Source: Erodium maritimum (Eukaryota > Streptophyta > Magnoliopsida > Geraniales > Geraniaceae). Taken from it: a stretch of DNA of 64,000 nt. A model generated the notes under the pieces. The model did not search any database. It was not told the DNA's origin and was given only the letters and a program-made list of their open reading frames with translations. Location of the stretch: the NCBI GenBank assembly GCA_963921825.1, contig OY997596.1:4407001-4471000 (forward strand). The letters run 5' to 3'. Positions within the stretch are counted from its first letter, which is position 1; every line of letters begins with the position of its first letter. Both the position numbers and the translations under genes were made by a program. This document shows, piece after piece, positions 2,384 through 58,667 of the stretch.

Positions 2384-5330
2384 ATGGCGAATAGGGTCGA
2401 TCACGAGTACGACTATTTGTTCAAGATCGTCTTGATCGGGGACTCCGGTGTCGGCAAGTCCAACATTCTTTCCCGGTTCACCAGGAACGAGTTCTGCTTG
2501 GAATCCAAATCCACCATCGGGGTAGAATTCGCCACCAGAACTGTCCAGGTTTCGATCTTTCTTCTTTCTCTGCCCTTTTTCTTAATTTAGTTATGCCATT
2601 TTTGTGAGTTCGATCTAGTTTGGTTTCAACCCAATTCGTTGTGTGCTTCAATTTTTTTTTTCTGAGGTCAGAACTTAGATTAAGAAGCTAGCGCATATGT
2701 TTCTGGATGTTGTGTGCAACTTTGGTTAATGGATGAGATCTGGATGAAATGGGTAATAGCATTTAGTGTCCCATAAAGTGAAGGGGTAACGTCATTCCTA
2801 ACCCATCAAAAGGTCATTTGCAATTCCTAACTGAGGTCGGCTTTTTGTGACAGATCATAACACAAAGGTGGTACACGTTTACAAAAAGTACCAATAGCAA
2901 TACCACATTTCTACTGCTTTTTGTAACAAACTACCACCTTTATGTTGGTTCATGTAAATTGTGCGACCTTTTAAGTTAGGAAATGTCTCGATAGCTCAAC
3001 TTCAGTTAGGAAGTAATAACTAAAGGTCACATAAGGTTAGGAAACAACGTTTTTCCTAAAGTGAAAGACGAGGTTTTTGTGGAACAGATGAAAAGTAAAT
3101 GGAACCCATAAGAATGGGTTGTGAAACTAAAAGGCATGTTCGTTGGTATTTTTGTTGATGTTCTATTTTGCTTTGGTGATTTTAGTGTAAGATGGGACAT
3201 CATAATTAAGGATGATGGTGGGTTGTGAAACTAAAGGCACATTCTTTGGTATTTTTTGTTGATTTTCTGCGGCTATCGTTGCTCATATATCGATTTTACT
3301 GGAAGAAGTGCCCCTAACCAGGCCATGGACTTTGTTTAAGGGAATGTGCATTGACAAATACGATTAGCTTTTTATTATGTTTCTTTCAGTTCTAAATCCC
3401 CAGCCATATCGTGTATATCCATTGTATGTTTATGAGTGACCATGAATCACAAGTAATTATAGGTAGTTGGAGCATGTTTAGATGTGTCTATCTACACTCT
3501 ACATACCAAAGAATGATGTATAAATGCTTTCTTCATTTAGAAAAGTGTCTAGTCGGGTAAGGGCATCATGGAGCTAGACTTTAGAGTTTAGAGCAGTACA
3601 AGATAGTACATGAGAAGCTCTTGGTGTTAGGCTGATTAAGATGGCTACTTAAAAATAGGGTAGGTTGTGCGTTGAAAGAAAAAAAATCATTTTTATCATG
3701 TGCGTGGGAGACTTCATTGTTCTTTTAGAATTGTCTTTAGACTTCAGATTTTAATTATGGTTGGAAAATCTCACTCAGCTACTCTTGAGTATGCGCCCCA
3801 TTCTCAACTAACTACCCATAAGTTAAAAAAAAAAAGATAACCCACTTAATTTTTTTGTCTCATTTCATCCAATTTCCGTCAATTGCTTAGACCATCCACA
3901 ATGCCACAATGGAGGCCAATCCACACGTCGAATCGACGTCGAAAGAAGCAAAAGAAGTGAAAAAGTTGACGTTTCGCTGACGTTTTCTCTCTCCTCCAAG
4001 TCTTTAATTTCCTTGACGTCGATTCGTATTCTACTCCCTCTCTCCTTCTCTCTATCTCTCTCTTCCCTCACACTCTCTCTCCTTTTTTGTTTCCTCTCTC
4101 CTCCCTCAACCATTCATCTTCTTCCACGTATTGATATTGGTCGGATTCGACTCACTGAATCTGACCTCCATTGCAGAATTTGCCGATTACGACCACAATT
4201 AAACCCATCGATTCGACTGGGAAAACTGCCTCAATTGTTAATGGTTTTAGGTATAAAATGACAAGAATACCCTCATGAGAAAATAAGATAGTGCATGAGA
4301 AGTTCATGGTTGGTTAGGTTGATTAAGATGGCTACTCTAAAATAGAGTAAGTTGTGTGGTGAAAGACAATTTCCTTTTTATCATGTGCATGGGAGACTTT
4401 GTTGATCTTTTAGAATTGTCTTTGGACTTGAGATGTTAATCATGGGAAAATCTCACTCAGCTACCCTTAAGTATGTGCCCCATTCTCAACTAACTACCCA
4501 TAGGTTTTATAAAAATTGACAACCCGCTTAAGTTTTTTTAATCTCATTTTAGTATTTTACCCAATTGCTGTCAATTTTTTGGGTATAAAATGACAAAAAT
4601 ACCCTCATGAACAAATAACATCAAGGGTATTTTCATTATTCCATACCTAAAAGTTATTAAAAAAAAGTTAAAAGGGGTTGTCAATTTTTTATTTATAAAC
4701 CTGTTTGTTGAGTAGCCGAGTGGATTATCCCTTTAATTATTTAGTACAATTGATTATTTACACATTTCCTTGTGGGTTTTTATGAATTAGTAGTAGGCAA
4801 TAGATTGTTGATGCTGTGATCAGTGAACATTTAAAACTTTTTGGGTACAGGTTCAAGGAAAGACAGTGAAGGCACAGATATGGGACACAGCGGGACAAGA
4901 GAGGTACCGAGCCATAACCAGTGCTTACTATAGAGGAGCAGTCGGTGCACTCCTGGTCTATGACATAACCAAAAGACAAACCTTTGAAAACGTGAACAGG
5001 TGGCTCCGTGAGTTGAGAGACCACGCCGATTCCAACATTGTCATCATGCTCGCCGGTAACAAGTCCGACCTGAACCATCTCAGATCTGTTACAGAGGACA
5101 ATGGTCTGTCCTTATCTGAAAAGGAAGGCCTCTCGTTTCTCGAGACATCGGCGCTTGAAGCGACAAATGTTGAGAAGGCTTTTCAAACCATTTTGTCTGA
5201 GATATATCATATTGTGAGCAAGAAAGCATTGGCGTCCCAGCAAAAGCCTGGCTCTGCCATTCCTGGTCAAGGGACGGCTATCAATGTTGCTGATGGAGGG
5301 GAGTCGAAAAGAGGTTGCTGTTCCTCTTGA
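2384..5330 (+). CDS. RABA2: RABA2-type (Rab11 family) small GTPase
   Basis: Two exons, 2384-2548 and 4851-5330, joined by a GT-AG intron at 2549-4850, give 214 aa. Switch and nucleotide-binding motifs are all present: P-loop GDSGVGKS (19-26), effector-region STIGVEF (about 43-49), DTAGQ (67-71), NKSD (125-128) and ETSAL (153-157). The protein ends -GCCSS, a CCXX-type geranylgeranylation signal. Known: plant RABA/Rab11 GTPases act at the trans-Golgi network and recycling endosome in secretion, cell-plate formation and polar growth. The N-terminus [14 protein letters not shown] and the late INVADGG segment fit the RABA2 clade best; the exact member is not resolved. The intron is long (2.3 kb) because it holds a MITE and an internal duplication. 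The start is the first Met giving the standard N-terminus. Confidence 0.95.
2783..3056. mobile_element. Mutator-type MITE in RABA2 intron
   Basis: The element is flanked by a perfect 9-bp duplication, TAAAGTGAA, at 2774-2782 and 3057-3065. The ends are imperfect inverted repeats: GGGGTAACGTCATTCCTAAC at the left, and GGAAAAACGTTGTTTCCTAA read inward from the right. It is 274 bp and noncoding. It shares motifs (AAAGGTCATTTGCA, TTTTTGTGACAGATC, ACCACCTTT) with the element at 8997-9313, so both belong to one family. Confidence 0.85.
3586..4580. repeat. Direct duplication inside RABA2 intron with an insert
   Basis: About 300 bp at 3586-3888 recurs at 4262-4580. Both contain GATTAAGATGGCTACT, CATGGGAGACTT-type, CTCACTCAGCTAC and CATTCTCAACTAACTACCCA blocks in the same order, with several substitutions. 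Between them, about 3889-4240 is unrelated CT-rich DNA bounded by TCAATTG on each side, which may be a separate small insertion. No coding potential is supported. Confidence 0.6.
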
Positions 5331-35564: not shown

Positions 35565-43202
<7,638 letters not shown>

Positions 43203-44906: not shown

Positions 44907-47900
44907 TCACTCGGCTAAGCCCACTGAAGTTGCACACAACTTCAGCTTCTCATTCGGCACGACCTTTGTGAACATATCTGCAGGATTCTCATTTCCTGCG
45001 ATCTTCTTGAGAACTAGCATCTTGTTCTCCAAAGCCTCTCTAATGAAGTGGTAACGAAGCTGTATATGCTTCGTTCGAGCATGGTACGCCGGGTTCTTCG
45101 CCAAGTGTATGGCGCTCTGGCTGTCGCAGTAAAGAACACTGACCTCCTGATTATACCCCAGCTCCTGTAGAAAGGACTGAAGCCAAATCATCTCCTTTGT
45201 AGCCTCAGTCACGGCCACGTACTCAGCCTCGCAACTAGAAAGAGTAACAATCTTCTGCAACCTTGAAACCCAACTGATTGCAGTACCTCCGAATGTGTAG
45301 ACATAATCGGACGTACTCTTTCTACTATCGATGTCGCCACCGTAGTCTGCATCAACGAACCCTTCAAGTCCCGAATCGGACTTCCTGAAGCACAGTGCCG
45401 TACTTGAGCTTCCTTTAAGGTACCTGAAAATCCACTTCACGGCTTCCCAATGTTGTTTGCCCGGATTACTCATAAATCGGCTCACAACTCCCATTGCATG
45501 TGCAATGTCCGGTCTCGTGCATACCATAGCATACATAAGACTTCCGATAGCTGAGGCGTATGGAATCTTATCCATGTACGCCATATCCTCTTCTGTCACG
45601 GGCGAGTCGCCTTTAGACAACCGAAAGTGAGTGCCTAGAGGAGTTCCAACAGACTTGGCATCGTCCATGTTGAACCTTTTCACGACCTTCTTCACATAAT
45701 CTTCCTGTGACAGTTTCAGCCCATCTTTGCTCCGTGTAATCCTCATCCCGAGGATTTGTTTTGCAGTCCCGAGATCCTTCATCTCGAACTCCTTCGACAG
45801 CCTCTTTTTCAATTTCTCAATCTCAGTGAGATCTGCTCCTGCTATTAACATGTCATCAACATATAACAGTAATATCAAATACGAGTTACCAAGTTTCTTG
45901 AAGTAGCAGTAGTGATCTGCCTCACACCTCCTAAACTCGACCTTCTTCATGAAGCTGTCGAACTTCTTGTACCACTGGCTTGGAGCTTGCTTTAAACCGT
46001 ACAAACTCTTTTGGAGCCTGCACACCATCTTCTCCTTGCCTTTGACCTCAAAACCCTCTGGTTGTTTCATGTAGATCTCTTCTTCTAGCTCGCCGTGAAG
46101 GAAAGCAGTCTTCACATCCATCTGTTGAAGGTGTAGATCTTCTTTTGCCACTAACCCAAGAACTGTTCGAATAGTCACCAGCTTAACAACTGGGGAGAAA
46201 ATTTCGGTGTAGTCAATACCTTCCTTCTGCTGAAAACCCTTGACTACCAGCCGCGCTTTGTAGCGCTTGCTTCCATCGTGCTCTTCTTTGATCCGATAGA
46301 CCCACTTGTTTTCTAACGCTTTCTTGTTAGCCGGAAGCTCAGCTAGCTTCCATGTTCGGTTTGACAACAATGAGTCCATCTCATCCTTCATCGCCAGCTC
46401 CCACTTGCTCGATTCCTCAACACTCTTTGCTTCATCATAGCATTCAGGCTCACCTCTGTCGGTAAGCAAGATGAAGTCCAGCGACGACGAGAACCTTTGC
46501 GTCGGCCTTCTTATCCGAGAAGATCGGCGTACGTCGGTGGTCGGCGTTTGTTCTTCGACTTCCGGGTCGCTATCTTGCTGAATCTCTTCTTGAACTTCAA
46601 GTTCATCTTCTTCCGACATATCCCGCTCTGGTTCGTGTGTAGAAATCTCTCTCAAGTCAACCATAGCTGATTTTTCATTTCCCGACTCTCGACTCTCCGG
46701 AGCCTGTTGCAGTTTGTCTTTGTAGAGCACTTGTTCATTAAAGATGACATCCCTACTTCTGATGATCTTCCGGTTTTGATCGTCCCAGAAACGATAACCA
46801 AACTCGGAATCACCATAGCCAATAAAATAACACTTCTTAGACTTTGCATCAAGTTTACTTCTAGAAGCGGCATCAATATGAACGTAAGACAAACAACCAA
46901 ATACTTTCAGAAAAGATAAGTTTACCTCTTTTCCTCTCCACACCTCTTCTGGAATTCGGAAATTCAAAGGAACGGACGGTCCTCGATTGATCAGATACGC
47001 CGCAGTGTTAACCGCATCAGCCCAAAACGTCTTCGGTAGCCCAGAATGTAGTCTCATACTTCTTGCACGCTCATTCAGCGTCCGATTCATCCTTTCTGCT
47101 ACTCCGTTTTTCTGAGGTGTCTTTGGAATGGTTTTCACCATCTTGATCCCGTTCTGAGCACAATATTTCCTGAAGGGACCATCAATGTACTCTCCACCGT
47201 TATCGGACTTTAGACTCTTTATCTTCAGGCTTGTCTCGTTTTCAACCAAAGCTTTCCAGGTCTTGAAAACATTGAACATATCAGACTTGTGTTTCATAAA
47301 ATACTCCCATACCTTTCTGGTTGAGTCGTCTATGAACGTCACATAATAATGTGACCCTCCCAGGGAAGCTACCAGGGCTGGTCCCCATACATCGGTATGG
47401 ACCAATGCCAATTTCTCCGTCTTCAGCTCCCTTCTTCCGGTTGAGAAACTCACTTTCTTCTATTTCCCAAGCACACAACTCTCACACAAATGGAGATTCA
47501 CCAATTTCAACTCTGAAATCGTTCCCTCCTTGACGAGAATATTCATACCTTTCTCGCTCATATGCCCAAGTCGTTGATGCCACAACTCGGTCTTCTGGAT
47601 ATAGTCCACAACAACTGCTGAGTCAGGGCAGCTTGTCGTCATGTAGAGGGTGCCGGTTTTCTGACCACGAGCAACCACCGTTGCTCCCTTTTCCACCTTT
47701 CACTTACCTTGGCCAAAGGTAATGTTGTGACCTTCATCATCAAGTTGACCAACAGAAATCAAATTCCGTTTCAGCTTCGACACATGTCTCACCTTCTTTA
47801 TCTTCCACGTGCGCCCGTTCGGCATCTTCAAGGTGATGTCTCCGTGACCGACAATAGGTAGAGGCAAGCCATCGGCTAGATAGACCTTTCCAAGATCACC

Positions 47901-48852
47901 AGCAACATAATTGTCGATCGGACTGTCGACGGACAGTAGCAACGTATCCTTGGAGTTTCCAACTGTCGCTGCAACGATTTCTTCAACGCTGCATTTCTCC
48001 ATGACAGAGTCTTTTGGGCAATCCGCCCATGTGAGCAATGCGTCACCAGTCTCATCGGTTGTCGCATTAACTGCATTTCCCAAAATTTCTCTCTTGGGAG
48101 CCTTGCAATTCTTCTTCACGTGACCTGTCATACCACAATTCCAGCACTCCACTGTTCTTCCGAATCTGGATGGGCTTCTACCGTTTCTTGACTTTGACCT
48201 GTCCTTGTTCCTGTTGAACCTTCTCCCTGTTCCTCTGCCCCTGTGTTCCACATTCAAGGCAGAATTGGAAGAGCTCTCGCCTGCATCGGTCCTTCTGACT
48301 TCCTCGGCCAAAACACGATCTCTAACATCTGTGAATTTTAATTTTGCATTCCCAACGGAATTGCTTACCGCTGCCCTCATTGGCTCCCAACTCGGTGGTA
48401 GAGACGCCAATAAAATTAGGGCACGAATCTCGTCATCAAAGTCAATTTCCACAGATGACAATTGATTAACAATTGTATTGAAATCATTCATATGTGCAGC
48501 AACAGATCCACTTTCTTCCATTATCAAATAAAAAAAGCTTTTTCATAAGAAATACCTTATTATTTGCAGAAGGTTTCTCGTACATGTCGGACAGTACCTT
48601 CATCATGCCTGCAGTGGTCGTCTCCTTCGCCACATTGTGTGCGACGTTTTTCGACATGGTTAATCGCACAACCCCCAGAACTTGTCGATCCAAAAGAGCC
48701 CACTCAGCATCATCCATCTTTTCCGGCTTCTCCGTCAGAGGCACATGTAGCTTTTTACCGTATAGGTAATCTTCCATTTGCATTTTCCAGAATGCAAAAT
48801 CGGTACCGTCGATTCTCCCGATCCCGTGAGCAGAACCATCGTCGCCAGCCAT
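44907..48852 (-). pseudogene. gag-pol of copia copy 3, nearly intact
   Basis: Gag starts at Met 48852 (MAGDDGSAHGIGRIDGTDF). A frameshift near 48530 interrupts it. A CCHC knuckle (CWNCGMTGHVKKNC) lies near 48110-48150. The protease catalytic DSG stretch is absent: SVDSPIDNYVAGDLGKVYLA joins the segments normally on either side of it. Stops at about 47700 (W codon position) and 47460 follow. Pre-integrase (WHQRLGHMSEKG), integrase (HTDVWGP, SDNGGEY, PQKNGVAERMNRT), RT (YVDDMLIAG) and RNase H (VDADYGGD, SSCEAEYVAV) are otherwise complete to 44907. Confidence 0.9.
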
Positions 48853-49498: not shown

Positions 49499-50201
49499 TG
49501 ATCAAACCAAATATGGAAAATACGTCGGTGATGGTTGACCACAGACGGCCTGAAAAGGAGTCGTCTGGATAGTAGTATGGTATGTGGTATTATACCAGAC
49601 ATCTGCCACAGGTAGCCATTTGACCTAGTCTTTTGGGGAGTCCGAGCACATGCACCTGAGATAAGTCTCTAGGGCCTTGTTCACAATCTCAGTTTGACCA
49701 TCCGTCTATGGACGTTAAATAGGTGAAACTTTCTAGGTAATATGTTGGAGACGGCAGAGCTCGTACCAAAATGAGGATACGAAATCCTTGTCACGATCGC
49801 TAACAATTGAGGCTGACATACCATGAAGATGGAAAATCTGATCGAGAAATAGCTGAGCCACCCCAAGAGGTGTTAATGGGTGCTTCAGAGCCATAAAGTG
49901 GATTGTTTTAGTCAAGCGATCAACCACGACAAAAATCACTTCATAACCATGCGATTTGGGTAACCCCTCGATGAAATCCATCGAGATGTCTTGCCACATA
50001 GTAGAAGGAGTGCTCAATGGTTGCAGAAGACCAGGAGAAGTTGCCAAGGCAGGTTTGTGGGACTGACAAACTTGGCACATCTCTACCTACCATAGTGGTG
50101 ACATCCTTCTTAAGCTTCCTATAATATAAATGAGCTGAGATCCTTTTGTATGTGGCATGTCTACCTGAATGACCCCCCGTAGCCCCCGTATGGAAATATG
50201 A
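49499..50201 (-). pseudogene. Ty3 integrase zinc region and catalytic core
   Basis: HTGATGGHSGRHATYKRIS with a following CQVC forms the zinc-binding part. DISMDFIEGLPKS, VVVDRLTKTIHFMAL and IVSDRDKDF carry integrase core residues. A stop after RLQHIT and frameshifts near 49730 break it. Confidence 0.85.
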
Positions 50202-51059
50202 TAGAAGTTTGGGAAAATTTTATTTTAATACCCTGTCAAACATTTAATTTTACTTTAATATATTGACATAAATTTTTTGCATTTTCATACCTAAATCAAA
50301 CATTTAATTTCACTTTAGTACCCAGCAGTTAACTTTCTGTTAGTTTTGATGGAAAAAGGTAAAAAGACCATAATACTGCTAACTATTATTCAAATTTTCA
50401 AACTAATGCCATTGGTTCAGAATTTGAAAATAAGTGAAATGACAATAATACCTTTCATTGTTAGGGTGTTAAAATGAAAATTTCACTATATTTCAAATAA
50501 AATCAGTTTATTTTCTATAAATTTAGTTTTTATTTATGAAAATTATTTTTATTTTTATAAAATTCAATTTATTTTTTTATGAATTCATTTTTATTTATAA
50601 AAAATATATGTATTTTCAAAAATTCAGTTTTTATTTTTATAAATTTAATTTTTATTTATGAAAAATATTTTTCCTTTCAAAAATTCAAATTTTAATTTTA
50701 GAAATACATAAAAATTAAATTTTATTTTAAAAAAACATAAGAAAATCAGTTTTTAATTTAATTAATATTTTATTATATTTGTTTTTTTAAAAAAAATTTC
50801 ATTCCTGTACCCAATCTTCCCGTCTTTCTTCTCGTCATAGTCTCTCTCCTCCATTTTCAATACAAGACCTTGAATCAACAAAACTACTTGAAGAAAACAT
50901 TGGTTCCATTGTATTTCACACCCTATTTTCACAGCCAAAACTACTTGCAGAAACCAATTTCAGAAAGCCCCCAACCCATTCCAAAATCAATTTTGGAAAC
51001 CAATTTACAAATCTGAAAACATCAATTTCATTACTTGCAAAAACCAATTTCAGAAAGCA

Positions 51060-51415
51060 CCCGACTACTTGTGTCGTCGACGGAGACGAACACGACGCCG
51101 GCCGTGTCGCACGCGGTACTCATGCTGAGGTCGTCGGAGTGATCTGGGACCGGATCTCGCGGCAGGCCACCAAGGCGGCGCTGGGGCCGCAACCGCGTGA
51201 AGGCGGTGGAGGCCGATGCGACGGCGGCGATGGTGGACGTGCTCCAGCGAGATGGACGAGATGCCGCTGGTGGTGCTGGATTTGTTGAGCGTATGCGCGG
51301 AGGGGAAGTCGGACCTGGTGGGATCTGGTTTCATCTTCAACGAGATGGAGAAGATGGTTCTCACACTCATGTCCAGACTTGGTTCTCTCTGGAACTCATA
51401 TATCTTAAATAATTA
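51060..51415 (+). pseudogene. Captured fragment resembling a U-box E3 ligase (PUB22/23/24-like)
   Basis: In shifting frames the segment reads RISRQATKAALG, then NRVKAVEADATAAMVDVL, then LVVLDLLSVCAEGKSDLVGS. These match the ARM-repeat half of plant U-box ligases of the PUB22/23/24 group (known immune and drought regulators), where QATKAAL, NR-K/I-KAVEAGAV and LVVLDLLC-CAEGRAEL occur in that order. At least one stop (about 51144) and two frame changes are present, and the U-box is absent. It is a non-functional captured piece. Recognition is by eye; the segment after NEMEKMVLTL is unplaced. Confidence 0.6.
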
Positions 51416-51549
51416 ATAATATTAATTTTACAAGAAAATCTGGAAACTACTTTTCTTTAATTTTTGGAAATAAATCAAAGAGAAAATTAAATATGATATA
51501 TATATATATATATATTTTTTGAGGATAACCAATGCAATTGAATTAGATC

Positions 51550-52170
51550 ATAATAGGATGGTTTGGTGGGTACTTAAACCGTACACCACCTACATAAGCA
51601 AAAACCAACTTTGGTGGGCATCTAACCATACTCTACCTATATAAACCAAACCAACTAGTAAACTGAAATGAAACGAAAGCAAAAATCGGCTCTAGTGAAA
51701 GGTTGCGGACGAAGGGGATATCTGCGGTAGCGTCTGGTGACACTGATACAGCATGCTTCTTCCAATTGGGACGAGGCGAAGCCAGCCACGTTTAGGGGAA
51801 CACTGGTGGACCTACATCTCCCCCGGTATGTCAGCGTGCGTCGTCCTCCCTTGATTGATAATGGTAGGGCTCCTGAACGCGGGATTGCTGACTCCGGACT
51901 GGTAGGGGAGACAGTTATCGACTGAAGATGGAACCGTCGCCATCTATCCGCTGGGAAGGGGTCAAAGTCGACCCACCCCTCCCCAGGCCACCTCAAACTC
52001 ATTCCTGTAGGTGAGGGTGCTTGTAGCCCCCCGCCGCTGCTGCGTGTGATCCACTCGCATCCTACATGAGCCCATTCGTGCAGCCCATCCCATCCCCACG
52101 GCCCAGAGTCGGCCCATTAGGGTTAGGGTTCCCGTGCAGTACCCCCTTGCCCTGACTTCTTCGCCTAACT
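51550..52170. repeat. Repeat copy A inside the MULE
   Basis: Shares GCGGTAGCGTCTGGTGACAC, ACAGCATGCTTCTTCCAA, GTGGACCTACATCTCCCCCG and GGCCCATTAGGGTTAGGGTT with copy B at 61655-62395, in the same order and orientation. It lacks about 150 bp present in copy B (62,115-62,270). The identity of the repeat is unknown; it may be part of a LINE. Confidence 0.75.
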
Positions 52171-52339
52171 ACCGCCGCCGCCGACGAGAATTCCATCACC
52201 AGCCCCAAAGCCGCCGCCCGCGCCGGCGCACGATCTCGTCCAGAACCTTGCTTGGCCCGCTCGCTTCCACCCCGGCCATCACCCACCGATCGCCGGACCG
52301 AGGAGAACACAAGGGACGACTCCTTCTCCTCCCCCGGCG

Positions 52340-52740
52340 ATGACAGATCCAGCGCAGCCGACCTCCTCTGCCAAGACGCTGCCGCCGTTCCTGACCTCTG
52401 AACTTCCCCGTCACGAGCTCTCCTCGCCGATCCCCGCCAGCCTATCTTCCCCTCCTGGCACGCCGGAATCCATCAAATACAGTTTCGGATACACGATCCC
52501 CATGGTGGACTCCGACGGCGAAAACCCCCTCGGGAGCCACCGTCCCCCACCTACGACAAGACCCCCTCGAGAGCCGCCGCTGAACGCAAAGCCCTAATAG
52601 GGTTGCGTCTGCTACCCAAGCTATTCCAAGGAGTAGCTTCTCCATAGATGGTGGTTGCTTCGAAACTCGGAAGCATCATCATGGCTAGAACCATGGCCTT
52701 GATCATGGCCATGGTCCTTCCTTCCACTCTGTGCGGCGCA
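52340..52740 (+). other. GC-rich frames of possible captured origin
   Basis: 52340-52597 reads MTDPAQPTSSAKTLPPF and onward, Pro/Ser-rich, and ends in a stop. 52649-52735 reads MVVASKLGSIIMARTMALIM then MVLPSTLCGA, which looks like a signal-peptide-type hydrophobic start before running into a TA microsatellite. Either could be a captured exon or a LINE leader; no family assigned. Confidence 0.3.
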
Positions 52741-53439
52741 TATATATATATATATATATAGATATAGAAATCTGACTTATAAGTATATATTTTTTAAATA
52801 AATGATTTTTATATTAATTTTTAAATAAAAATTGAATTTTTAAAAGTAAAAATTGAATTATTAAAAAAATATTTTTAAATAATAAACACGAAAACAAAAA
52901 GTAAATAAATTATATATAAACTGATTTTTTAAATAAAATCTGGTTTTTTAGAATTTTTTTAATTAAAATCTGAATTTTTGAAAATAAAAAATAAATTTAT
53001 AAAAATAATTTTTGAAAATAAAAATAATTTTCATAAAAAACTAAATTTATATAAAAAAAATGATTTTATTTTTAAAATAGTGAAGTTTTCATTTTAACAC
53101 CCTAACAATGAAGGGTATTATTGTCATTTCACTTATTTTCAAATTCTGAACCAATGGCATGAGTTTGAAAATTTGAGTAATAGTTAGGGGTATTATGGTC
53201 TTTTTACCTTTTTCCATCCAAACTAACATAAAGTTAACTGCTGAGTACTGTTGGGTACTAAAGTGAAATTAAATGTTTGATTTAGGTATGAAAGTGCAAA
53301 AAATTTATGCCAGGGTATCAAAGTGAAATTAAATGTTTGACAGGGTATTAAAATGAAATTTTCCCTAGAAGTTTAGAGAGAAGAGCCTGATCACGACCCA
53401 CCACCTGTTTGCCCTTTCTAAATAACTGATCGTTGACTC

Positions 53440-54690
53440 AAGCATAATGAGAAGAGGAACGCCCATCTTGAATATCAGGAAGCTTACTATCTATCTTAGG
53501 GTCAGAGTGCCAGAAAGAATGAATATGCTCCAACAACAAAGAAGATATAGAAGTTAAGGCCAAAAGGGAGAAGGTAGAACCTGAATCAGCCAAAACAGAG
53601 TCGGCAAACTTGTGAGACAAGGCATCTGACACCACATTTGTTGAACCCTTTCGAAATTGAATTTCGAAATTGTAACCCATCATTTTGATTACCCAAGTGA
53701 GCTGAGCTGGTGTGAAAGTTTGTTGATCCAGCAAAAAGCGTAGACTTTGGTGATCATTCTTAATAACAAAGTGACGACCAGTTAGGTACGAGTTCCAATG
53801 CTTTGTAGCAAGGAGCACAACGAGCATTTCCTCTCATAAACTGAAAGAGATCGTTTCCTTGGCCCCAATGCCTTGCTGAAGAAGGCGATTGGTTTTCCTG
53901 ACTAAGATAGAACAACCCCCAACTCGGTATTGGATGCATCAGTTTCCAACACAAAAACCACCTGAATATCGGGAAGGCCAAGCATAGGTGCTGAAGTCAT
54001 TGCCTGTTTAAGCTTCTCAAATGCGATATCAACTTCAGATGTCCATGTGAACGCATCCTTCTTCAGTAATTCTGTAAGAGGCTTGGCAATAGAGCCATAA
54101 TTTCGCACAAACTTACGATAATAACCTGTTAGGTGCAGGAACCCTCGAAACTTCTTGATTGTTGCAGGTAAAGGCCAATCCAATATGGCCGAAATCTTCC
54201 TCTAATCCATCGCCACACCCTTCGAGGATGACATGTCCCAAGTACTCGATCTTAGTGGCAGCGAACACACATTTGGATACCTTGAGGAATAGATGCTTCG
54301 CTTTGAGTATTTCAAAAACCAATCTGAGATGGGTATAGTGGTAAGCAAAAGAGTGTGAGTAAATCAACACATCATCAAAGAAAATCAGAACGCAAACTCT
54401 TAATAAGGGCCTGAATATGCTTTGCTGATAAAAAAAGTGCCTGAATATGTCGTTCATCAACGACTGGAAAGCGGACAGGGCGTTTGTAAGGCCAAAGGGC
54501 ATAACGAGAAACTCACAATGACCCGAGTGAGTGCAGAAAGCCGTTTTGTAGACATCCTCAAGCTTCATCATGATCTGGTGGTACCCTGCACGCAGGTCTA
54601 GTATAGTGAAACATTCGGCATCGTGAAGTTCATCGAGGAGCTCCTGTGATTCTAGCATTTCAGAGACAATGTGCTCTATCTCAGCCTGCC
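53440..54690 (-). pseudogene. Ty3 reverse transcriptase and RNase H
   Basis: ILDLRAGYHQI, FLVMPFGLTNA and FFDDVLIYS are RT motifs. [10 protein letters not shown] and [13 protein letters not shown] mark the linker, and VIKNDHQSLRFLLDQ with ALSHKF the RNase H. The N-terminal RT segment normally between EMLESQ and ELLDELH is deleted, a short duplication lies near 54,400-54,440, and frameshifts occur near 54,150 and 53,850. Confidence 0.85.
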
Positions 54691-55084
54691 AAAATAACAT
54701 TAACATCAAAGTGTGTACATCATCAGCTAAGCAAAAGAAAGACAAATATTGACACTCTGTTGAAATAGAGTCCTCGTTCATTTTTACAATAACAAGTTTC
54801 ACGCTCCGTATGCTACACAGAAATGTTATTTATCCGATGAAACGAAAAGGATTGATCAGTAATGAAAGTTTCATTACATATCAAGTTTGTAAAAACTAGT
54901 AATGTATTAACTTCATCGACTACCTAATTTCTTGTCGGACTAAATTTTAAGTTACTTAATAAGTCATTTCCACCTTCTTAAATACTCAAACACTAACTAT
55001 ACAAACTCTTGTTTAAAAGTAAAAATAGTGTCACATGTAATAAAAATAAAATCAAACTCTTGTTTGAAAGAGTGGTTCTTTTTA
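54691..55084. other. AT-rich intergenic stretch
   Basis: No gene or repeat structure recognised between the Ty3 edge and the NHL-like promoter. Confidence 0.35.
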
Positions 55085-56211: not shown

Positions 56212-56272
56212 TTCATTCAAATTCGAACCCATGGCCTAAAGGAGGTGATAGGAAAGCAAATTAGTAGCATAC

Positions 56273-58667
56273 CTGGTGCTATGTACCCGAATGTGCCAGC
56301 AACTACAGTGAATTGGGAGGAGTCTTGATTCAAAAGCTTAGCAAGACCGAAATCAGAAACCCGAGCCTCGAATTCAGCATCAACCAACACATTGCTGCTC
56401 TTGATGTCTCTATGAACAATTGGTGGCACACAATCATGATGCAAGTAGGACAAGGCGTGAGCAACTTCTTTAATAACATTAACCCTCTTGCCCCAATCGA
56501 ATTCCTTAGCTATGTCATCGCTTCTCAAGATCGTCGCCAAGCTCCCCCTTTCGAGGTACTCGTAGACAAGAAACGAGTGAAGGGAATGAGAACAAAAACC
56601 GTAGAATCTCACAATGTTTCGATGCCTTACTTGTGTCAATACCTTAACCTCATTTACATACTCTTGTGGGCATGTCATCTCAGCAGCATTATGCAGTCTC
56701 TTGACAGCTACAAACTCTCCGGATGATAAACTCGTCTTGTAAACTCTCCCTTGTCCTCCCTCCCCAATACAATACTTGTCATCAAAATTTTCGGTTCCTT
56801 CCATGATTTCTTGGTACACAAGCTTTCCATCAAAACCCAATATTGCAAACAATTCTTTAAGTTTTTCTTCACCTTGTTCTTCAGGTTGGACTGCCTTTCT
56901 TCTTCTGCTTCTCATAACACAGAATACTCCAAACAAGACGGATGCAACTAGAACGAATGCCACGAGAGAATAAATTATGGGAAGCAAAACAGAATGGTGT
57001 TCTGTTATCCGAAACAGAGAAGAACATGGCTTCAATGTGCTAAAATTACCACATAGTTCTTTGTTCCCCTGCATTGGAGCATCTTGAAATGCTATGTTGT
57101 TTGGAATAGGGCCTTGCAATTCATTGTAGGAGATGTCAACAAACACCAACCCTCTCGTTTCCTCAAATGACGATGGAAGGGAGCCTGAGAGATTGTTGTG
57201 GGAGATGTTCAACGTTTCCAAGCTTTGCATGTTGATGATCTCTGAAGAAATCTCACCACTGAGTGAGTTGTAACTCAAGTCTAAGAGATTCAATTGTTTT
57301 AACTTCCACATGTGAACTGGAATCTCTTGACTAAGTTGGTTGTGACTCAAGTTCAAGTAAATTAAAAGCGACAAATCCCCAAAATTGTATGGAATGGAGT
57401 TGATAAACTTGTTGGAAGACAAATCTAGACTTTCAAGGCGGTCCAATAACCCGAGTTGAGGAGGTATGGAACCAGAGAATTGGTTTCCTTGCAAAGAAAG
57501 TTCCAATAAAGAGGCTAACTTGGTGATTTCTTTTGGAACTTCACCACCAATGTGGTTGAAAGAGAGATCAAGCTCTTGTAAATTGGTTGCATTTCCAATC
57601 TCAGGTGGTATGTTACCTGTGATATTGTTATTTGCCATCTTCAAAACAGCAAGTCTTGTACAGCTTCCCCAATTACGAGAAATCTCCCCGTAAAACCTAT
57701 TTTCACTTATGTCTATGTAATTCAAATTTGGCAAAACTCCAAAAGCATCCGATATATTTCCAGTCAGTAGGTTTCCTTCAAGACGAGCTCGTATTAAGCT
57801 CTTGCAGTTTCCCAAGTCTTTTGGGATGGAACCTGTTAGATAGTTGCTTTGCAGTGACAAACTCTGAAGTAGCCCACCATGACAAATATTTGGTGGCAAA
57901 GTGCCATTTAGTTGATTGTATGCCAAGGTTAACTTAACAAGAGATTTCATATTTCCTATTTCTCGAGGGATGGAGCCTGAAAGTTCGTTATCATACAAAT
58001 ACAACTGGGAGAGGTTTGTTAGGTGACCAAGGGAAGCTGGAATGGGTCCACTAAGATTATTCGAGCTGAAGTTTAAATGAACAAGAGATTTCATATTTCC
58101 TATCTTTGGAGGGATGGAGCCTGATAGCTGATTTGTGTGCAAGTACAATGTGGTAAGAGTTGTTAGGTGACCAAATGAAACAGGAATGAGCCCGCTAAGA
58201 TTATTGGAATTTAACTGTAAAGCAATAAGAGACTTTATATTTCCTATCTCTCGAGGGATGGAGCCTGAGAACTGGTTTGCATGCAAATACAATACGGTGA
58301 GTCTGGAGAGGTAACCTATCTGAGGTGGGATGGTACCAAAAAGTTGATTATCCCAAAGATGAAGAGATGCAAGATTAGGGAAAGAAGTGAAGGAAAATCC
58401 ATGAAGAGTACCTTGTAAATCCAGTTGAGAAAGATCGATTCCGATGACACTTGTGTTCCTTGAGTTGCAAGAAATTCCATGCCAAGTGCAAGAACCAAGG
58501 TTTGATGAAGAATTGGCCCATGAAGAGAGGTAGGATTGGGATTGAGATTCAAGGGTGCTCTTCCACTTTAGAAGGGCATTAGTTTGAGCTACAAGAGAGG
58601 TTTTGGAAGCAGCATAAAGTGAAAGACATAACAAGGTTAAATAGAAAAGAAAAGAGAAAATCATCAT
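56273..58667 (-). CDS. LRR receptor-like kinase, MIK2-like, first exon only
   Basis: The exon encodes 798 aa plus one base. Parts in order: signal peptide (1-20), LRRNT_2 cap with CTWHGISC (about 27-66), about 18 plasma-membrane-type LRRs (LSGSIPPEIGN pattern, 70-520), cysteine pair ELCGNFSTLKPC, transmembrane helix (about 561-585), basic stop-transfer RSRRRK, and kinase N-lobe with GEGGQG (635-640), VAVK (K about 656), HRD (752-754), DFG (772-774) and GTFGYIAP at the end. The donor CAG|GTATGC splits the Glu codon of APE, where this family normally has its intron. Known: MIK2-type receptors sense peptides at the plasma membrane. The expected second exon (C-lobe) is not found in the window, so the gene is probably broken. 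Confidence 0.85.

Follow-up and report, generated by a model that had tools for sequence, protein, structure and literature searches.

A probable Pack-MULE in Erodium maritimum with a broken fragment of a U-box E3 ligase gene and a nested poly(A) retroposon

The window analyzed in this study is a stretch of 64,000 nucleotides (contig C9, positions 4407001–4471000) from the 763-Mb, 40-contig genome assembly of Erodium maritimum. Among its long open reading frames (ORFs), those within 36482–43202 on the plus strand are presumably subtilase-like pieces, while two on the minus strand, 44907–48527 and 56217–58667, recall a Ty1/copia polyprotein and an LRR receptor kinase, respectively, which we take to be their nature from the sequence. 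A transposable element spans positions 50211–53365 and is flanked by two identical copies of a 9-bp target site duplication (TSD), TAGAAGTTT, at 50202–50210 and 53366–53374. The element starts with a left terminal inverted repeat (TIR) at 50211–50564 on the plus strand, whose first bases are GGGAAAATTTTATTT, and ends with a right TIR at 53007–53365 on the minus strand. The two TIRs are 89.8% identical over 364 aligned columns (K2P distance of 0.075; 25 mismatches at 350 sites in an ungapped count). At about 354 bp and 90% identity, they exceed the 100 bp from which the TIRs of a Pack-MULE count as long. A reading of the sequence alone (hereafter, the sequence-only reading) had described a complete long-TIR Mutator-type element with a perfect 9-bp duplication, which the TIR alignment and the identical TSD copies bear out.

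Inside the TIRs, AT-rich arms (50565–50814, with a weaker inverted repeat, and 52760–53006) surround a GC-rich centre. The GC content falls to 0.09 in 250-base windows of the arms and reaches 0.667 at 51059–51325 and 0.571 at 51515–52739, with an AT-rich dip of 0.254 in between. The contrast between centre and arms noted in the sequence-only reading is therefore real, with the GC-rich part consisting of two blocks split by the dip. A low-copy stretch at 50815–51058 precedes the first block, and an end junction followed by more of the original element's DNA, mostly AT-rich, occupies 51326–51495.

The element is inserted in a Ty3-type retrotransposon, as indicated by a reverse transcriptase domain (RVT_1) at 54113–54802 on the minus strand and by integrase matches to the left of the element, of which Integrase_H2C2 scored above the cut-off and rve below it. 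In all five related Ty3 loci that we fetched, the sequences corresponding to the two flanks are contiguous and lack the element (69–73% identity per flank). These empty sites, together with siblings on other chromosomes that have their own TSDs, demonstrate that the element has been mobile.

The larger GC-rich block, 51515–52739, is a 1225-bp retroposon lying on the minus strand. Its poly(A) end is seen as a T run at 51515, the family's first 27 bases are missing from it, and it is bordered by (AT)n target duplications at 51496–51514 and 52740–52759. The family is of high copy number, with at least 3333 first-look candidates; the 40 scored, which include the window copy, were 92–100% identical, and the 39 other copies were 92–98% identical to the query (51690–52200). 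A stretch of 9–16 bases was common to both sides in 14 of the 18 copies with an intact 5' end, a count made without a chance control. A poly(A) tail and a target duplication of variable length are thus both present, as in poly(A) retroposons. No Pfam domain was detected in the retroposon, and kinship with LINEs is not supported by a domain match. When the retroposon and one (AT)n copy are subtracted, about 1.9 kb of the element is left, and five siblings measure 1.56–2.03 kb.

The nested retroposon also accounts for two features that had been proposed as captured gene pieces. A signal-peptide-like open start (52681–52740 on the plus strand, with its ATG at 52681) is antisense to the 5' end of the retroposon and is not captured gene DNA. 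A repeat shared with the 61.7-kb region of the window is real (87.9% identity over 423 columns, or 87.5% over 449 when the query is a family member); it is not a separate captured piece, since it is part of the nested retroposon, and the copy at 61.7 kb is a diverged relative. Both candidates were rejected as captured genes because they fall within one high-copy insertion.

We also observed a peculiarity of the 5' ends of this family. Among the 30 copies read (L010–L038 and the window copy), 18 have a conserved 5' start, and in 13 of the 14 among them with a target duplication, 13–44 non-family, copy-specific bases separate that duplication from the conserved start (again without a chance control). 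These leaders end in G in 10 of the 13 copies, and in one of them (L022) the leader is 43 bases long, and its first 32 bases have no second occurrence in the assembly, even when up to two mismatches are allowed. The leaders possibly derive from upstream transcription starts or from host RNA joined to the retroposon.

The smaller GC-rich block contains the remains of a gene. The sequence-only reading had likened 51060–51415, read in order, to the ARM region of PUB22/23/24-type ligases and had called for a search for parental genes. A derivation from a PUB-type (U-box/ARM) E3 ligase gene was substantiated. A DNA search of this piece against its own genome gave 12 matches, itself included. The sibling transposon L002 (E = 6e-92, 81%) and the intact PUB genes L004 (E = 2e-38) and L005 (E = 5e-26) were among them, the latter two being the same places as L050 and L048 in the protein search described below. 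The others were L003, which is a PUB fragment without TIRs; pieces of 36–57 bases in the TIR elements L006, L007, L008, and L046 (C1:23.30 Mb); two pieces at C8:59.17 Mb, which fall in the PUB gene L049; and another piece next to the L005 match. In a tblastn search against a small set of six sequences, the piece matched in three frames, in order through the ARM region (E = 6e-10). The protein search of the genome returned 53 PUB-like matches with E up to 1e-10, some genes being counted in pieces. The donor-type genes L050, L048, L049, and L051 are intact ORFs of 394–412 aa, so the host gene whose fragment the element contains is represented elsewhere in the genome, as expected for a Pack-MULE. 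Two of seven PUB ORFs, L050 among them, were scanned with Pfam and showed both U-box (E = 7e-22 and 3e-21) and ARM_PUB (E = 4e-77 and 1e-87) domains. The window piece itself gave a non-significant ARM_PUB score (E = 0.13), and its assignment to PUB is based on the DNA and tblastn matches. The label PUB22/23/24 for this donor type comes from the sequence-only reading and is a putative subgroup assignment.

The best seven ORFs were compared with the cargo, and L050 (C7:70.07 Mb, 394 aa) was the nearest of them. The cargo and L050 share 17 blocks of at least 9 bases, and nine of these lie on one line from coding sequence (CDS) position 577 to 880 (577–588, 667–714, 745–794, 811–820, and 839–880). 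The collinear set holds all six blocks of 12 bases or more, and the other eight, of 9–11 bases, lie off the line or beyond it. The reversed piece shared one block of 9 bases with L050, and 200 mononucleotide shuffles shared 1.93 on average, a control of block number in which lengths are not kept. A chance match to PUB was excluded by these counts and by the E-values. In direct alignment, the cargo follows L050 CDS 667–895 with the frame broken by two skips: 26 bases between CDS 714 and 745, and 17 bases that are missing at one point or two from CDS 794 to CDS 839. The cargo probably also includes the upstream CDS 577–588, about 64 bases then being skipped ahead of CDS 667; this part, within the first 70 cargo bases, is a single 12-base block that was not placed by a gap-tolerant global aligner. 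These comparisons demonstrate captured host DNA over about 51059–51325 on the plus strand.

L050 may not be the direct donor, because the cargo differs from it by 13% and shares residues with the fragment L003. When three blocks of codons (54, 48, and 72 nt) are set against L050, the differences number 6, 5, and 12, respectively (23/174 sites in total), which exceeds the difference between the interiors of the window element and L002 (49/562). The cargo residues MDEM and DLLS are closer to L003 than to L050. L003 is located around positions 3952–4096 of L042 (C1:77.57 Mb), has cargo-like residues that are absent from L050, and showed no MULE TIR or spanning inverted repeat within the 9 kb read. 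The direct donor may therefore be a lost or unsampled paralogue of L050.

The siblings mark the order of events and one end of the capture. L002 (C4:22.28 Mb) matches the window element in its TIRs, in the subterminal stretch 50815–51058, and in the PUB cargo; the interiors are 91.3% identical, with 156 gapped columns, and the flanks and target duplication differ from those of the window locus. The 26-base skip and the upstream junction recur in L002; the 17-base skip does not, and 19 additional bases stand in its place. Because one skip is common to the two elements and the other is not, the rearrangement took place partly before and partly after their separation. Between L067 (C3:54.24 Mb) and the window element, identity is 86% over element positions 2 to 848 (window position 51058); beyond that point L067 has other cargo, for which two further matches exist in the genome. 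This break coincides with the start of the PUB piece and thus marks one end of the capture. L044, L045, and L046 contain only the end of the PUB piece with the junction (51287 or 51294 to 51339).

The TIRs belong to a large family. A 270-bp TIR query gave at least 3671 first-look candidates, and the 40 scored yielded 43 matches, all at 90% identity or more; these counts are lower bounds for matches, and each element has two TIRs. Six elements (L060–L065) were chosen solely because they had two nearby, inward-facing TIR matches among the matches listed, and all six have GC-rich centres, of several kinds. Perfect 9-bp TSDs flank five of them, and L061 matches at 8 of 9 positions. Over 12 elements (the window element, L039, L043–L046, and L060–L065), nine TSDs are perfect, two are imperfect (L039 and L061), and one element (L044) has none. 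L061 and L065 have a common cargo, part of which is also present in L064, and the cargos of L060, L062, and L063 had no match among the other five of the six elements at E = 1e-8. Overall, the siblings have swapped and mixed cargo. The L062 cargo recurs in the TIR elements L080 (95%) and L081 (93%) and partly in L084, and it matches, at about 92% and minus 101 bases, a 283-codon frame open from stop to stop in L082, which forms a tandem pair with L083. We considered whether this gap was an intron lost through capture from RNA; the 101 bases belong to the donor's open coding frame, and the explanation was discarded. Donor coding stretches are thus missing inside both cargos that were traced (PUB and L062). 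The cargo frames of L062, L044, L065, L063, and L046 (three to five of the six frames each) gave no Pfam match above the cut-off.

MULE transposase domains are abundant in the genome (1627 first-look candidates; all 150 scored were above the cut-off). None of them was linked to these TIRs, and no autonomous element with these TIRs was identified. Three arrangements of TIRs were noted in passing. At C2:49032999–49034079, four matches lie head to tail at 90–91% identity to the query, with a spacing equal to its 270-base length. This group resembles the tandem-TIR MULEs in the available part of PMC3310237, and spacing by the query length does not fix the true repeat unit. In the 3.1-kb L065, an L061-like element seems, by eye, to enclose another MULE that has TIRs and an inverted-repeat cargo of its own. 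At C1:85.83 Mb, a TIR pair points outward.

Taken together, we are highly confident that the element is a non-autonomous Mutator-like transposon, namely a Pack-MULE, with a captured PUB piece and with the following history. An ancestor with the long TIRs of this large Erodium maritimum family would have copied part of the CDS of a PUB-type ARM-repeat gene, L050 or a close paralogue, between its TIRs. The internal donor parts that are missing may have been lost by template switching during repair or replication, and later deletion is also possible. The loaded element then transposed, giving rise at least to the sibling L002 with the same cargo, and the window copy entered the Ty3-type retrotransposon with a 9-bp duplication, its movement presumably supplied in trans by a MULE transposase. 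The poly(A) retroposon came later, landing in an (AT)n run next to the cargo, and most of the GC-rich centre now consists of it. The donor genes, siblings, and empty sites uphold the proposal of a Pack-MULE with a U-box ligase fragment. The further proposal that this copy is a chimeric mosaic of unrelated gene pieces is not supported: the pieces traced come from one gene, the 1225 bp being a nested retroposon, and a chimeric Pack-MULE contains pieces of two or more unrelated host genes.

The stretch at 50815–51058 is set aside in that count, as it may represent another captured gene piece in addition to PUB, which would make the element a true chimera. It is of low copy number (30 genome matches reported), is common to L002 (86%) and L067 (85%) despite their different cargo, and is matched in part in the TIR element L071. 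However, no gene donor was seen when the best six of the 30 matches were fetched (four of them, L067 and L069–L071, were compared; the remaining two are the window itself and L002), most matches are short, and the stretch may be mere subterminal DNA of the subfamily. We consider the second capture unlikely, while leaving it an appreciable chance.

Much less probable is a regulatory role, in which transcripts of the element would give rise to small RNAs that match PUB genes and silence them in trans. A small chance of such action is left because positions 51188–51215 (plus strand) are identical to L050 CDS 745–772 at 28 of 28 bases, which is long enough for small RNAs of 21–24 nt. In the part of PMC13317346 available, gene-piece transposons including Pack-MULEs are described as siRNA reservoirs that affect donor genes in maize. 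On the other hand, this is the only identical block exceeding 20 bases, frameshifts and skips interrupt the cargo, and 50000–53700 gave no Rfam match at gathering scores. If the idea were true, the transposon family would be a dispersed regulator tuning U-box ligase donor genes, given that the cargo is present in at least two transposons.

A protein product is still more doubtful. Pfam gave no match at E = 0.1 for any of the four element ORFs that reach 80 aa, and with no transposase match in any of the four, the element is non-autonomous. Between the window and L002, the sense PUB blocks differ at 4, 3, and 8 of 58 first, second, and third codon positions, respectively, a third-position excess on too small a number of sites to carry weight. 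The cargo might instead code for a novel protein; a candidate is the 101-aa ORF on the minus strand at 51065–51370, whose frame is open in the window and also over the L002 cargo, where a 36-base length difference keeps it. Against this, the window–L002 differences by its codon phase are 10, 8, and 5 of 92 each, without a third-position excess, which led us to reject protein selection on this ORF; it also lacks a Pfam match, and the antisense of the donor gene is likewise open for 353 codons. We regard a new protein as very improbable. No sign of coding function was found in the element by Pfam or codon-phase comparison, and in all likelihood the PUB piece is passenger DNA in decay, without a protein product.

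Finally, that the GC-rich centre is solely a high-copy repeat without any gene capture can be practically dismissed: it holds for the 1225 bp of 51515–52739 but fails for 51059–51325, where the PUB stretch lies outside the retroposon and has the 12 genome matches, intact PUB genes among them.

Gene-fragment capture by a Pack-MULE, the reading that we prefer, is confirmed in the Erodium maritimum genome by donor, sibling, and empty-site evidence, and a large TIR family with varied cargo makes this plant suitable for studying how MULEs copy host DNA. The locus also calls for caution, in that GC-rich blocks of Pack-MULEs may be nested retroposons and not captured genes. Pack-MULEs had been called less well documented in eudicots than in rice. 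This is fair, yet the portions of the reports available give 46 in Arabidopsis and 220 in tomato, besides 2853 in rice and 276 in maize (PMC3310237), and 1,447 in sacred lotus (PMC4053705). In the literature accessible to us, the sole match combining "U-box" and "Pack-MULE" concerns a PIF-like element of Phalaenopsis.

The following comparisons draw on the accessible portions of the cited works. The gap-filling and FoSTeST models for Pack-TYPE and Pack-TIR elements (PMC8277862, PMC8903248) propose the same template-switching origin of the captured pieces, and multicopy forms tend towards GC-rich pieces, as here; the cases in PMC8277862 are from animals, unlike this plant element. SaTars, which are microsatellite-targeted non-autonomous MULEs (PMC5907723), are likewise inserted with (TA)n flanks. 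In our element, by contrast, (AT)n flanks the nested poly(A) retroposon, while the MULE has an ordinary 9-bp TSD. The closest likeness is to the Pack-MULEs of Jiang et al. (2004), as cited in later work: the build of a non-autonomous MULE with long TIRs and a 9-bp TSD is the same, as are the host-gene fragment with its donor elsewhere, the GC-rich cargo, and the siblings with other cargo. Both cargos traced here lack short stretches of donor CDS, leaving aside how usual this is elsewhere, and, unlike those Pack-MULEs, the element owes most of its GC-rich centre to a nested retroposon.
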